Below, one piece after another: positions 5,621-19,196 of a stretch of 64,000 nucleotides of DNA. The notes under the pieces are model-generated. The model worked only from the letters and a program-made list of their open reading frames with translations. It was not told the origin of the DNA and made no database searches. Positions within the stretch are counted from its first letter, which is position 1; each line of letters starts with the position of its first letter. Made by a program: the position numbers and the translations under genes. This DNA is from Niallia sp. XMNu-256 (lineage in GTDB: Bacteria; Bacillota; Bacilli; Bacillales; Cytobacillaceae), in NCBI RefSeq assembly GCF_036670015.1, contig NZ_CP137636.1, positions 3,326,501 to 3,390,500 of the forward strand, given 5' to 3'.

Positions 5621-5835
5621 AGATCCGAATACAAAAATTTAGGTCAGAGAATCACCTGTCACTGTTTTCAGGTATGATGAACCACAAAAAAGTGTGAGTG
5701 AATACACCCACACTTTACGAAACATTTCAAAAGTAAAAGTTTTCGTTAACCTGTCAACAGCCATTCTTGCGTCAATCAGGTGAGAAGCGGGTGCTTCTTC
5801 TTATCCTAAAAAAAGTATTCTATTTTCAACTGTTT
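5621..5835 (-). promoter_or_regulatory. L20-type autoregulatory leader with attenuator
   Basis: About 210 bases of untranslated leader lie between the infC promoter and start codon. Reading leftward, AAAGTGTG pairs with CACACTTT (5689-5716) and is followed by TTTTTG, an intrinsic terminator before infC. Position, length and operon match the Bacillus L20 leader, in which L20 binding promotes termination. I did not model the L20-binding fold, so the ligand is assigned by context. Confidence 0.7.
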
Positions 5836-7950: not shown

Positions 7951-7980
7951 AAAAAGCCCATCCCGAAAAAGGGACGAGCT
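7951..7980 (-). terminator. T-box-regulated terminator of thrS
   Basis: Reading leftward, AGCTCGTCCC pairs with GGGATGGGCT (G-U pairs allowed) across a U-rich loop and is followed by TTTTTATTTT. It is the terminator half of the T-box switch, just before thrS. Confidence 0.9.
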
Positions 7981-8225
7981 ATTACACACGTGGTTCCACC
8001 CTACTTTATATTTTTACAATATGTATGTAAAAATAACTTTGTAGAAAGATAACGGTCTTAGGCCGTCTTCCGATAATTTAACGAGTCTAGTCGTTATTTC
8101 CCGGTTGAAGTTCAGAGGTGGTAAGTAATCCAATCGTGTTAGGAAGGTTCCAGCCTTGCCTTCCCTCTCTATAAACCGTAAATAGAATACCCTTGTCCTC
8201 ATCATTACTTTACTATCAAATTGCT
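7951..8225 (-). ncRNA. Threonyl T-box leader of thrS
   Basis: The conserved T-box sequence AGGGTGGAACCACGT is read on the minus strand at 7988-8002 and is followed by the terminator at 7951-7980. Upstream are a stem I with AGAGAGGGAAGGC and GGAACC distal-loop-like parts and the segment TTACCACCTC, in which ACC (Thr) is the likely specifier. Uncharged tRNA-Thr would pair through its CCA end and favour antitermination. The specifier is a best guess; the T-box itself is clear. Confidence 0.9.
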
Positions 8226-14931: not shown

Positions 14932-15759
14932 TTATATTTTTTGACAGGCAGGGCAATAAACGGTCCCACGTCCACCAACTACCGTTCTAATTAACGGTGT
15001 TTGGCAAAGCTTGCAATCTTCCCCTTTACGTCCATACACATAATGCTCTAATTGAAACATTCCCATCTCCCCTTGGGAGTTCACATACGTTCTTACCGTA
15101 CTTCCGCCCTTATCGACTGCTTCAGTGAGAGTTTCAATAATTTTTTCGTATAGAACATGAATTTCCTCTGATGTCAGAGATTGGGAGGATCTTTCCGGAT
15201 GTATTCGAGCTTTGAACAAAGCTTCATCAACATAAATATTTCCTAATCCGACCACTACTGTTTGATCAAGCAGAGTAGATTTAATATTTCTTGTTGTTTT
15301 TGCCAACTTTTGTGCAAACTCAACTTTATCAAAGGTTTCATCTAACGGTTCTGGGCCAAGTTGTGAAAGGGGAAGTGAGGTAAACTCGTCCCCTTTCTTA
15401 AAAAGATGCATTGTTCCAAATTTACGAACGTCCTTGTAGCGCAATTCTGTCCCGTCTGTAAAGTGGAAAATAACATGTGTATGCTTTTCCACAGGGTCTT
15501 CCCCTTGATAAAGGGTATAACGTCCTTCCATTCGTAAATGGGAAACAAGGGCATAAGTTTCTGTATAAAAAACAAGAAACTTTCCTCTTCGGTTAATATC
15601 AATAATACTCTGTCCTACCAATGCATCTATGAACTGCTCCATTACTTCTGGCTTTTTGATCATTTTCGGCCAGAATACAGATACCGATTGGATTTTTTTA
15701 TTTAAGACTAATCTCTTTAATGTTCGTCGAATCGTTTCAACTTCTGGAAGCTCTGGCAA
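14932..15759 (-). CDS. mutM: Formamidopyrimidine-DNA glycosylase
   Basis: A 275-residue Fpg that excises 8-oxoguanine and nicks abasic sites. It has the N-terminal catalytic PELPEVETIRR (Pro after the initiator Met is the nucleophile), the H2TH region near NIYVDEALF, and a C-terminal zinc finger with C-x2-C (DCKLC) and C-x2-C (YCPAC). The length is normal. In B. subtilis mutM follows polA directly; here 794 bp with a 52-bp tandem repeat separate them, so transcription from polA would cross the repeat. Confidence 0.97.
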   Translation of the reverse strand: MPELPEVETIRRTLKRLVLNKKIQSVSVFWPKMIKKPEVMEQFIDALVGQSIIDINRRGKFLVFYTETYALVSHLRMEGRYTLYQGEDPVEKHTHVIFHFTDGTELRYKDVRKFGTMHLFKKGDEFTSLPLSQLGPEPLDETFDKVEFAQKLAKTTRNIKSTLLDQTVVVGLGNIYVDEALFKARIHPERSSQSLTSEEIHVLYEKIIETLTEAVDKGGSTVRTYVNSQGEMGMFQLEHYVYGRKGEDCKLCQTPLIRTVVGGRGTVYCPACQKI

Positions 15760-15807
15760 TCATAAAACCTTCTTTCAAATAACCTTAAAAGTCCAAACTA
15801 AGCTTCA

Positions 15808-16525
15808 TTCGGACAGGAGAGAGAACTTTTATGCCTCCCTGTCCGAAATTGGGCCCTGCGGACTGGATCGCGCTCATTTGTTGATTACTTGTCCGTATTT
15901 GCACCCTATTCGGACTGGATCGGGCCCGTTTGATATCTTTCTGGCCGAATCGGAACCCTGTTCGGACTGGATCGAGCCCGTTTGTTGACTTCTTGTCCGA
16001 ATCGGAACCCTATTCGGACTGGATCGTGCCCGTTTGAGGGCTTTCTGGCCGAATCGGAACCCTGTTCGGACTGGATCGGGCTCATTTGTTGACTTCCTGT
16101 CCGAATCGGAACCCTGTTCGGACTGGATCATGCTCGTTTGTTGACTTCTTGTCCGAACCGGAACCCTGTTCGGACTGGATCATGCTCGTTTGTTGACTTC
16201 TTGTCCGAACCGGAACCCTGTTCGGACTGGATCGCGCTCGTTTGTTGACTTCTTGTCCGAATTGGAACCCTGTTCGGACTGGATCGCACTCATTTGATAT
16301 CTTTCTGTCCGAATCGGAACCCTGTTCGGACTGGATCGCGCTCGTTTGATATCTTTCTGTCCGAATCGGAACCCTGTTCGGACTGGATCATGCTCGTTTG
16401 TTGACTTCTTGTCCGATATGGAACCCTGTTCGGACTGGATCGTGCTCGTTTGTTGACTTCTTGTCCGAACTCGAAACCCATTCAGGTTCTTATTCAATTC
16501 CACTTCGTTTGTCCGAATTCACCTA
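15808..16525. repeat. Tandem array of 52-bp units between polA and mutM
   Basis: Twelve consecutive units of exactly 52 bp begin at 15857, 15909, 15961, 16013, 16065, 16117, 16169, 16221, 16273, 16325, 16377 and 16429. Degenerate units lie at both ends (15808 and 16481). Each unit begins TTCGGACTGGATC and carries GTCCGAA about 33 bases later, so the ends can pair as a 7-bp stem. GTCCGAA can alternatively pair with the next unit's TTCGGAC. The middle is mosaic: GTTGACTTCTT, GATATCTTTCT or GAGGGCTTTCT. Units 16117 and 16169 are identical. Open frames of 85 and 107 codons on the minus strand follow from the lack of stops in the unit and are not considered genes. Confidence 0.95.
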
Positions 16526-16553
16526 ATAACATTTTATAAAATGTAGCATCTAT

Positions 16554-19196
16554 CTATTTCGAGTCATACCAAGTTGGACCGTAGGCATAGTCTACTTTTA
16601 ACGGTACTTTTAGTTCGATGGCATTTTCCATGACATCTGGGACAATTTCTTTCAAGATCTCTATTTCTTCTGGCGGTGCCTCAAAGATCAATTCATCATG
16701 TACTTGCAGCAATAATCTTGTTTGTAATCCTTCACGTTTCAAGCGTTCGGCCATATCAACCATCGCTTTTTTAATAATATCGGCTGCACTTCCCTGAATA
16801 GGGGTATTCATCGCGGTTCGCTCCGCAAAGCTGCGCAGATTAAAATTACGGCTTGTGATTTCTGGTAAATAGCGGCGGCGATGCATTAAGGTAGAAACAT
16901 ACCCTTTTAACTTGGCATCTTTTACTATTTCATCGATATATTCCTTCACCCCTGGATAGCTGGCAAAATAGCGGTCAATAAACTCCCCCGCTTCTTTTCG
17001 TGAAATCTTTAGACTTTGACTAAGTCCATAATCACTAATTCCGTATACGATTCCGAAGTTTACGGCTTTCGCATGACGACGCATATTTGATGTTACTTCC
17101 TCTTTTGATACATGGAAAACATCCATTGCTGTTTTCGTATGAATATCCATTCCTTCACTGAAAGCTGAGATTAGTTTCTCATCCCCTGCAATATGAGCTA
17201 ACACCCGCAATTCAATCTGGGAATAGTCAGCTGCAAAAATAAGCCAGTCTTTCTCAGAAGGGACAAAGGCTTTGCGAATTTTTCTTCCTTCTTCTAAGCG
17301 TATCGGGATATTTTGCAAATTCGGATCCGTTGAGCTTAATCGTCCGGTTTGCGTTAATGCTTGATTAAAAATCGTATGGACCTTGTCAGTTTTTGGATGA
17401 ATGAACTTTACTAAGCCATCAATATAAGTGGATTTTAATTTCCCTAACTGGCGATACATGAGTATATGTTCAATAATCTCATGACTGCTTTCTAGTTTTT
17501 CTAAAACATCCGCTGAAGTGGAATAGCCTGTTTTCGTTTTCTTAATAACCGGTAAACCTAATTTTTCAAATAAAATAACTCCTAACTGCTTTGGAGAATT
17601 GATATTAAAGGTTTCACCTGCGGCCTCATAAATTTTTTCTTCTAACTGAGCTAATCGACCCTTTAATTCTTCTCCCATTGCTAGCAAACCATCTTTATCC
17701 ACTTTCACCCCTATGGATTCCATATCTGCAAGGATAATGGAGAGTGGCAATTCTAAATCATGATACAATTCAAGCTGTTGGTTTTCTTTAAGTTCAGACT
17801 CCAATTTATCCTCTAAATCTTCTAACACTAATGCCTTCCGGACGAGATGCTGTGCAAGCTCTGCCGAATCAGGAACCTTTCTTTTGGCACCTTTTCCATA
17901 AAAATTCTCATCCGATTGAATCGATGAAAAACCATATCGTTTTGCAATGGATGCAACGTCCTCAATTGTTTCTGAAGGATTTGCTAAGTAAGAAGCGATT
18001 AATAAATCAAAGGTAACTCCGTTTAAATGGATTCCATGATGTCTTAGCGAAACTTCCGACCGCTTTGCATCATATACAACTTTTTTCTTACTGTCATCCT
18101 CTGCCCAAGTTTTAAAAATAGGAGACTCTAGAGCCTTATCCGTAGCTATATAAAAATGACCTTTGTCATTTACGAGGGAAAAACCAATAATATCACTATA
18201 ATGGTAGTTGCCGTCTAATACTTCTACATAGAAAGCATTATGGTCTGAAAAAATAGACTCATTGACCTCTTCCACAATTTCAAAGTCGATGTCTTCCAAA
18301 ACCTCTGGCTCTTCCGTTTGAAGATCTCCACCCATTTTCTCCAATAAGGATTGAAACCCTAATTCCTTAAATAGACCCACCAATTTTTCATGATCAAATC
18401 CATTGTATTCAATGTTTTCTAATTGAACATCAATCGGTGCTTCCCTCATAATTGTTGCCAGCTCCTTGCTCATAATAGCCTGGTCTTTATACGTTTCTAG
18501 CTTTTCCTTTAATTTCGCACCGCTTACTTTTTCAATTGAGGATAATAACTCTTCTACCGTATGAAATTCTTTTAATAGCTTAATGGCTGTCTTCTCACCT
18601 ACACTAGGAACGCCTGGGATATTATCAGATTTATCGCCCATAAGTCCTTTCATATCGATAATTTGTTCTGGACTTAGCCCATACTTTTCTTGGATATGTT
18701 CTGGAGTATATTCCTCAATATCTGTAATCCCTTTACGAGTAATCCCGATAGTGGTCTTAGGAGAACTTAGTTGAGTTAAGTCTTTGTCTCCAGTAATTAC
18801 TTTAATTTCAAAGCCCTCTTTTTCCGCCTGTACGGTTAGAGTTCCGATAATATCATCCGCTTCATAGTTTTCAAGTTCATAGGTTGAAATTCCATAGACC
18901 TTAAGCAATTCACGAATATAAGGAAATTGTTCCGATAATTCAGATGGAGTCTTCTGCCTGCCACCTTTATATTCACTAAAGGTTTGATGACGAAAGGTCG
19001 TTTTACCAGCATCGAACGCCACCAACATATGGGACGGCTTCTCGTCTTCAAGAATTTTCATTAACATCATCGTGAATCCATAAACAGCATTGGTATGTAT
19101 TCCTTTATCATTATTCAATAGCGGCAAAGCAAAAAAAGCACGATAGGCTATGCTATTTCCGTCAATTAGAACCAGCTTTTTTGTCAAATCCAACAC
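16554..19196 (-). CDS. polA: DNA polymerase I
   Basis: An 880-residue family A polymerase for repair and Okazaki-fragment processing. The N-terminal 5' nuclease (about 1-290) contains DGNSIAYRAFF and the H3TH block GLMGDKSDNIPG. The central 3'-5' exonuclease fold lacks the catalytic DxE (FYVEVLD instead), as is usual in Bacillus. The polymerase domain has DYSQIELRVLAHIAGD, RRHAKAVNFGIVYG and QVHDELIFE. The start is TTG; another TTG two codons on has better spacing from GGGGTG. mutM lies downstream beyond the tandem array. Confidence 0.97.
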   Translation of the reverse strand: MLDLTKKLVLIDGNSIAYRAFFALPLLNNDKGIHTNAVYGFTMMLMKILEDEKPSHMLVAFDAGKTTFRHQTFSEYKGGRQKTPSELSEQFPYIRELLKVYGISTYELENYEADDIIGTLTVQAEKEGFEIKVITGDKDLTQLSSPKTTIGITRKGITDIEEYTPEHIQEKYGLSPEQIIDMKGLMGDKSDNIPGVPSVGEKTAIKLLKEFHTVEELLSSIEKVSGAKLKEKLETYKDQAIMSKELATIMREAPIDVQLENIEYNGFDHEKLVGLFKELGFQSLLEKMGGDLQTEEPEVLEDIDFEIVEEVNESIFSDHNAFYVEVLDGNYHYSDIIGFSLVNDKGHFYIATDKALESPIFKTWAEDDSKKKVVYDAKRSEVSLRHHGIHLNGVTFDLLIASYLANPSETIEDVASIAKRYGFSSIQSDENFYGKGAKRKVPDSAELAQHLVRKALVLEDLEDKLESELKENQQLELYHDLELPLSIILADMESIGVKVDKDGLLAMGEELKGRLAQLEEKIYEAAGETFNINSPKQLGVILFEKLGLPVIKKTKTGYSTSADVLEKLESSHEIIEHILMYRQLGKLKSTYIDGLVKFIHPKTDKVHTIFNQALTQTGRLSSTDPNLQNIPIRLEEGRKIRKAFVPSEKDWLIFAADYSQIELRVLAHIAGDEKLISAFSEGMDIHTKTAMDVFHVSKEEVTSNMRRHAKAVNFGIVYGISDYGLSQSLKISRKEAGEFIDRYFASYPGVKEYIDEIVKDAKLKGYVSTLMHRRRYLPEITSRNFNLRSFAERTAMNTPIQGSAADIIKKAMVDMAERLKREGLQTRLLLQVHDELIFEAPPEEIEILKEIVPDVMENAIELKVPLKVDYAYGPTWYDSK

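Follow-up and report, generated by a model that had tools for sequence, protein, structure and literature searches.

A 52-bp tandem array between polA and mutM of Niallia sp. XMNu-256 belongs to a widespread class of noncoding repeats and is a candidate platform for a protein that reads inverted half-sites

The array that separates polA from mutM in Niallia sp. XMNu-256 is a member of the class of 52-nt noncoding tandem repeats described in Bacillus (Subirana and Messeguer, 2021; PMC8161180), and it is a local gain in this genome. Each unit carries two half-sites, TGTCCGAA and TTCGGAC, as an inverted pair with centre-to-centre distances of 18 and 34 bp, which add up to 52. The sequence and spacing of these half-sites are nearly constant over many genera, and the spacers between them are almost random. 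The reading that we favour, to which we give somewhat less than an even chance, is that the array could be a binding platform for a putative protein that would read the inverted half-sites in duplex DNA every five helical turns. An interpretation of the array in terms of the repair operon that surrounds it is unneeded.

We analysed a 64,000-nt stretch of the chromosome, referred to below as the window. Over the whole window, TRF reports a single array (15859-16479; period 52, 11.9 copies, 87% matches, 0% indels), and the first-pass annotation, which had described twelve exact 52-bp units with degenerate edges, is upheld by TRF and by direct reading of the units, where "exact" applies to their length only and not to their sequence. 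The array and the genes on either side of it are laid out as follows.

14932-15759, minus strand: mutM, DNA-formamidopyrimidine glycosylase, with a TTG start (NCBIfam equivalog)
15791-15856: degenerate left edge, with GTCCAAA-N10-TTCGGAC at 15791-15814 and TTCGGAC-N26-GTCCGAA at 15808-15847
15857-16480: core array of 12 units, each exactly 52 bp (TRF and unit table)
15995-16383: stretch with seven exact GTCCGAA-N11-TTCGGAC sites (motif search of the contig)
16117-16168 and 16169-16220: adjacent pair of identical units (unit table)
16481-16517: degenerate unit at the right edge, closed by GTCCGAA at 16511-16517
16554-19196, minus strand: polA, DNA polymerase I (NCBIfam equivalog)

With its degenerate edges the array occupies 15791-16517, the outermost recognisable arms being the GTCCAAA that begins at 15791 and the GTCCGAA that closes the right edge. 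The seven exact sites lie at 15995-16019, 16099-16123, 16151-16175, 16203-16227, 16255-16279, 16307-16331 and 16359-16383. TTCGGAC occurs 23 times in the window when both strands are counted, against 4.6 expected (a five-fold excess that is reached in 0 of 100 shuffles), and 22 of these 23 copies lie in the array, in keeping with the unit ends that had been described. Two further features noticed at first sight, mosaic unit middles of three types and a pair of identical neighbours, are both present in the unit table: the middle type TTGACTTCTT and its near variants make up eight of the 12 units, GATATCTTTCT is found in the units at 15909, 16273 and 16325, and GAGGGCTTTCT in the unit at 16013. 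Reading frames across the array are short and made of the repeat itself, so the array is noncoding and fills the intergenic gap between mutM and polA. Elsewhere in the window, a T-box leader (7967-8214, minus strand) and a ribosomal protein L20 leader (5680-5808, minus strand) reach the Rfam gathering score.

The adjacency of polA and mutM is general, as the first-pass annotation had stated for Bacillus, with polA directly upstream of mutM at all 80 of the 80 mutM loci from named species. The gap between the two genes measures 794 bp here versus 11-381 bp (median 28.5) in these 80 relatives, where TRF detects no 52-nt array in the gap at a score of at least 60. Four congeners from the genome collection, with MutM proteins 74-78% identical, likewise have gaps of less than 100 bp and no array; two of the four coincide in sequence with Niallia endozanthoxylica and Bacillus sp. 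V3B, already counted among the 80, which leaves 82 distinct relatives (the 80 and two further congeners). Because 0 of the 82 has a 52-nt array at this place, we conclude that the array was gained between polA and mutM in this genome, as had been suggested; the opposite case, an array fixed in all relatives, did not arise. Repeats of other kinds occur at or near the same place. In Paenibacillus oryzae the gap holds a 17-nt repeat (L103, 3816-3936), for which TRF also gives a period of 51 with 2.4 copies, and a 52-nt array (L103, 4989-5293) lies just downstream of mutM, that is, on its other side. The gap of Anaerobacillus arseniciselenatis holds a 27-nt repeat in two copies. The mutM start codon of XMNu-256 is TTG (15757-15759), and it is ATG in the six relatives inspected (L031-L036).

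A search for the unit in the rest of the genome located 68 sites of the form GTCCGAA-N11-TTCGGAC and, besides the array between polA and mutM, at least six further arrays of the same kind. Their approximate positions on the contig, C1, are these.

306.6k: array between a MazF/PemK-type gene and a Tex gene
532.6k: array
632.5k: array
3342k: the array of the window
3514k: array between rlmN and a serA-like gene
3635.7k: array
3929k: two-unit remnant, to which the isolated site L284 was traced
3955k: array

A ZMP/ZTP riboswitch above the Rfam gathering score (L112, 720-802, minus strand) stands between the array at 3514k and the serA-like gene, and a Y1 transposase relic with several stops (C1:528724-529062) is found about 3.5 kb away from the array at 532.6k.

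The same pattern extends through the family. GTCCGAA-N11-TTCGGAC was found in 73 of the 151 family genomes sampled, which are spread over 14 of 25 genera and reach a maximum of 185 sites in one genome; the reversed-pattern control gave 0-2. Site counts within one genus, g17, run from 0 to 185 per genome, so the arrays are dispensable. A phylum-wide sample of 398 genomes yielded three with a match, namely the genome studied here, another member of the family, and a genome that has just one site. Such sites are also abundant in one genome, G032, from a different family within the order; two of its arrays, on different contigs (L113 and L117), share one 150-bp flank at 98% identity. That such arrays recur at six or more other places on this chromosome, and that about half of the family genomes sampled have them, speaks against a repair-operon device specific to the polA-mutM locus, which is how the array had first been read. 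We also considered a phage origin and a plasmid origin and rejected both: the 62 viral stretches with a match, all from viral contigs, carry a single site each, and one BLAST of plasmids with the window array gave no match. Isolated single sites number at least 14 among those listed, and we rejected the idea that they are operators of a regulator; L284, the one that we followed, is the two-unit remnant listed above, and none was recognised as an operator.

Tandem repeats of 52 nt have been reported in about 30% of Bacillus species, with a constant length, a species-specific sequence and no explained function (Subirana and Messeguer, 2021; PMC8161180). Short characteristic sequences, often accompanied by their reverse, were recognised within the repeats, and it was proposed either that a protein polymerises on the DNA, perhaps stabilising the nucleoid, or that the repeats give rise to small RNAs (PMC8161180). 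The window array resembles this class in its period and copy number (51-53 nt and at least four copies mostly of equal length in the class; 12 units of 52 bp here), in being noncoding and intergenic, in sharing its chromosome with several arrays of the same period and different sequence, and in the presence of a short word and its reverse in every unit. Indeed, the repeat 79_52_5 of B. oceanisediminis in Table 1 of that study has both arms the same as those of the window array, and 71_52_7 of B. alkalitelluris has the same arms with one substitution; both are unremarked there, and the GTCCGAA/TTCGGAC arms are not listed among the signals of Table 2 (PMC8161180). The authors regard the sequences as species-specific and unconserved, whereas here the arms recur in 14 of the 25 genera sampled with a fixed 18/34 geometry. 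We found no other treatment of the GTCCGAA/TTCGGAC motif in the literature searched, most subscription journals lying outside its reach.

Inverted repeats are frequent in this class. Table 1 prints 27 consensuses, none being given for species marked "Many"; each was compared with 100 mononucleotide shuffles, and 15 of them contain an inverted repeat at p <= 0.05, these being different sequences from families that are not independent; seven of the 15 have an outer span of 25-29 bp. The window array gives p 0.05 in the same test. In the genome of Paenibacillus oryzae, TTTGTA-N(6-16)-TACAAA occurs at 245 sites (control, 10), with a 10-nt loop in 47 of the 50 sites listed, which are mostly 52 bp apart. 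An inverted repeat is not universal, because it is weak in the 52-nt array of Ornithinibacillus halophilus (p 0.28) and absent from that of Evansella (p 0.87). A contig of Evansella tamaricis (L061, 1-325) contains a nested tandem repeat with periods of 35, 54 and 89 nt, 96-100% alike.

The arrays that share the half-sites of the window array are strict in their geometry. In 75 loci chosen by the motif, the loop is 11 nt in 596 of 604 sites with at most one mismatch. Successive exact sites in 47 array-rich genomes (46 family genomes with at least 16 sites, and G032) are 51-53 bp apart in 2323 cases and at other spacings of 26-84 bp in eight (six at 26-50 and two at 54-84), counts to be read in the light of the fact that units of an array are not mutually independent and that duplication copies their spacing. 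B-DNA has 10.4 bp per turn, so that 52 bp make five turns. The eight irregular spacings (40, 47, 48, 50, 50, 50, 57 and 84 bp) do not cluster at whole helical turns, in a sample of just these eight. We built a profile from the 51 arrays, out of 80 chains, that have at least two consecutive exact 52-bp units. Identity among their consensuses is 97% in the arms versus 36% in the N11 and 39% in the N27 spacer (26% and 30% for shuffled composition); arm positions come near two bits each, and most other positions hold little information. The exceptions lie close to the arms: T precedes GTCCGAA in 49 of the 51 arrays, A or T follows TTCGGAC in 49, and a T-run stands 12-16 nt after TTCGGAC, with TTT within positions 36-43 in 32. 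That the spacers have diverged with almost no change in length argues for a constraint on length, imposed by selection or by the copying mechanism.

From conserved half-sites held in a register of about five turns, we infer that a protein may recognise the same face of the helix throughout. Such a protein would read TGTCCGAA and TTCGGAC in double-stranded DNA and, with 52 bp close to five turns of B-DNA, would sit on one face in every unit, making the array a platform, for example for nucleoid organisation. Ordinary recombination or slippage would add, remove and mix copies, arrays would occasionally arise at new intergenic places, and the position between polA and mutM would be incidental, although the array might have a polar effect on mutM. 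We count in favour of this proposal the use of an unrelated half-site at the same period in Paenibacillus oryzae. We count against it that the arrays are dispensable, as the range within g17 attests, that no binding protein or lone operator site was recognised, that the irregular spacings do not fall at whole turns, that both strands of the array fold better than shuffles, and that the inverted repeats in 15 of the 27 published consensuses are also predicted by a pairing model. BldC offers a likeness in type of mechanism only: in the accessible part of its description, a cooperative multimer reads regular short repeats, there direct repeats bound head to tail and here inverted half-sites in long arrays (PMC5859096).

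A serious rival, which we hold to be quite possible, is that the arrays are neutral or selfish satellites with no host function, which would expand through slippage and unequal exchange and reach new places through errors of copying or the action of an enzyme, their constant length and arms being a product of the copying mechanism or of descent. Their patchy presence among close species fits such an origin, as does the lack of an array at the orthologous place in all relatives examined. So do two near-identical sister arrays in one genome (G124), which are 89-90% identical over about 1.58 kb, run in opposite orientations and are separated by about 980 kb. At the start of the array at 1681k stands an exact 56-bp copy (L290, 1521-1576) of an internal part (L289, 701-756) of the fumarase-type lyase gene (PF00206) that lies beside its sister at 702k; the array is inverted relative to this piece, and the flanks of the two arrays are otherwise unrelated. 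This looks like template-switch copying more than clean transposition, in one case for which an assembly error is possible, and it slightly strengthens the rival, without changing the weight that we give to it. A comparison of array flanks from five genomes with a few loci gave no second copied edge piece. Linkage within arrays declines smoothly with distance and drops slightly across an arm (r2 is 0.295 inside one segment; 0.247 and 0.275 across arms, at 8-19 bp), so that mixing looks like ordinary recombination, which again fits a neutral satellite. A MITE-like element would have terminal inverted repeats at the array ends; of 95 array edges, 51 end in an outward arm, where random breaks should give 35% (p 1e-4 in a simple model), and the other 44 do not. 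What a neutral satellite explains with difficulty is a spacer identity of 36-39% together with stable length and arms, a combination that could hardly last unless selection or an enzyme specific for the sequence maintained it; no enzyme of that sort is known here, and six of 22 array-rich genomes lack Y1 transposases.

The first-pass annotation had proposed that the leftward polA-mutM transcript carries the array as a series of alternative hairpins that lower mutM expression, a model that we now consider improbable. It has in its favour that the array lies between co-directional and normally tightly packed genes, and that a search for a separate mutM promoter found no sigma-A-like site in 15600-16700 (1.2 expected), which makes read-through from polA into mutM plausible. 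Three terminator-like sites between the genes, versus 1.5 expected, are all on the strand opposite to them. Being palindromic, the array folds better than its shuffles on either strand (z -5.7 and -6.1, the latter for the minus strand), which leaves room for RNA effects, and the 52-nt repeats of B. coagulans are reported as transcribed (PMC8161180, PMC8625621).

The arms themselves do not behave like RNA stems, and this part of the earlier proposal is not supported. In 4319 arm-pair cells (617 in-register units from 58 of the 75 loci) there are 279 one-sided changes, three two-sided complementary changes and seven two-sided non-complementary ones; since arrays were found through exact arms, jointly drifted arms are invisible and the one-sided count leans to the reading of DNA recognition. 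Of the 169 distinct changes 148 have a known orientation, and these include 40 of G-U-compatible types and 42 of the mirror-image types. Bases 8 and 18, just inside the arms, are T-A, which would pair, in 29 of 58 loci, G-G in ten and C-C in eight, and a mismatched arm is found in most units of two arrays of the genome studied here (GGCCGAA in L236 and GTCCGTA in L285). The supposed tie to the leftward transcript fares no better. Simple reading-frame heuristics, applied to 49 loci with at least three sites, place 28 arrays between co-directional, eight between convergent and one between divergent genes (12 unclassified), the excess of convergent over divergent places, 8:1, having p 0.02 one-sided in a small sample; the 27 oriented arrays between co-directional genes (one such locus is without orientation) show no preference, with 13 versus 14. 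Rfam gives nothing at the gathering score in the window array (two implausible matches up to E 1) and no match in six other arrays of this genome. Moreover, the same arrays adjoin unrelated genes, and relatives lack an array between polA and mutM. We therefore rejected RNA pairing as the main constraint, on the rarity of compensatory changes and the lack of a G-U bias, and likewise a structured RNA regulator, for which compensatory upkeep, a fixed orientation and an Rfam family match are all missing. One-sided arm changes, the absence of a G-U bias and the absence of orientation together favour recognition of the half-sites in duplex DNA.

Much less credible, and already weakened, is an element of the REP or BIME type that a REP-associated (Y1) transposase would mobilise. 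The arrays are palindromic and intergenic and lie in co-directional and convergent places far more than in divergent ones, as REPs do in the accessible part of their description, and they differ from REPs in that here there is no GTAG/CGTC tag, no constant Y1 transposase, and a strict tandem period of 52 (PMC3733652). Counted anywhere in the unit, GTAG/CTAC occurs in 11 and CGTC/GACG in one of the 51 consensuses. PF01797, the Y1 transposase, is about as frequent in array-rich as in array-free genomes (16 of 22 versus 19 of 24), and it is not required, because the other six array-rich genomes have none. With the tag rare and a cognate RAYT transposase not constant, we rejected membership in REP/BIME.

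Sites of a recombinase that swaps modules at the arms are the least credible origin and likewise already weakened: the units are mosaic, and two inverted arms with 11 bp between them have the general look of a recombinase core site, but linkage shows no sharp break at the arms.

The 52-nt satellites have been an open puzzle of constant length, variable sequence and unexplained function. The window array leads from this puzzle to one conserved word in a fixed geometry, shared by about half of the species sampled in the family, and the common half-site and register, the most useful result of the analysis, make the question of function testable. Arrays of TGTCCGAA-N11-TTCGGACA are a usable bait for seeking the binding protein, if one exists. 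There is also a caution, in that one such array should not be read as a device of the gene that it adjoins. We suggest tentatively, as a wider view that we regard as less likely than not, that bacilli may have satellite-binding systems, in which a lineage-specific protein would read a pair of inverted half-sites recurring at five-turn intervals and form a regular nucleoprotein fibre along dozens of intergenic arrays that are mobile and dispensable, and in which related bacteria would use unrelated half-sites (TGTCCGAA here, TTTGTA in Paenibacillus oryzae) at the same 52 bp, so that length, and not sequence, would be what is conserved.
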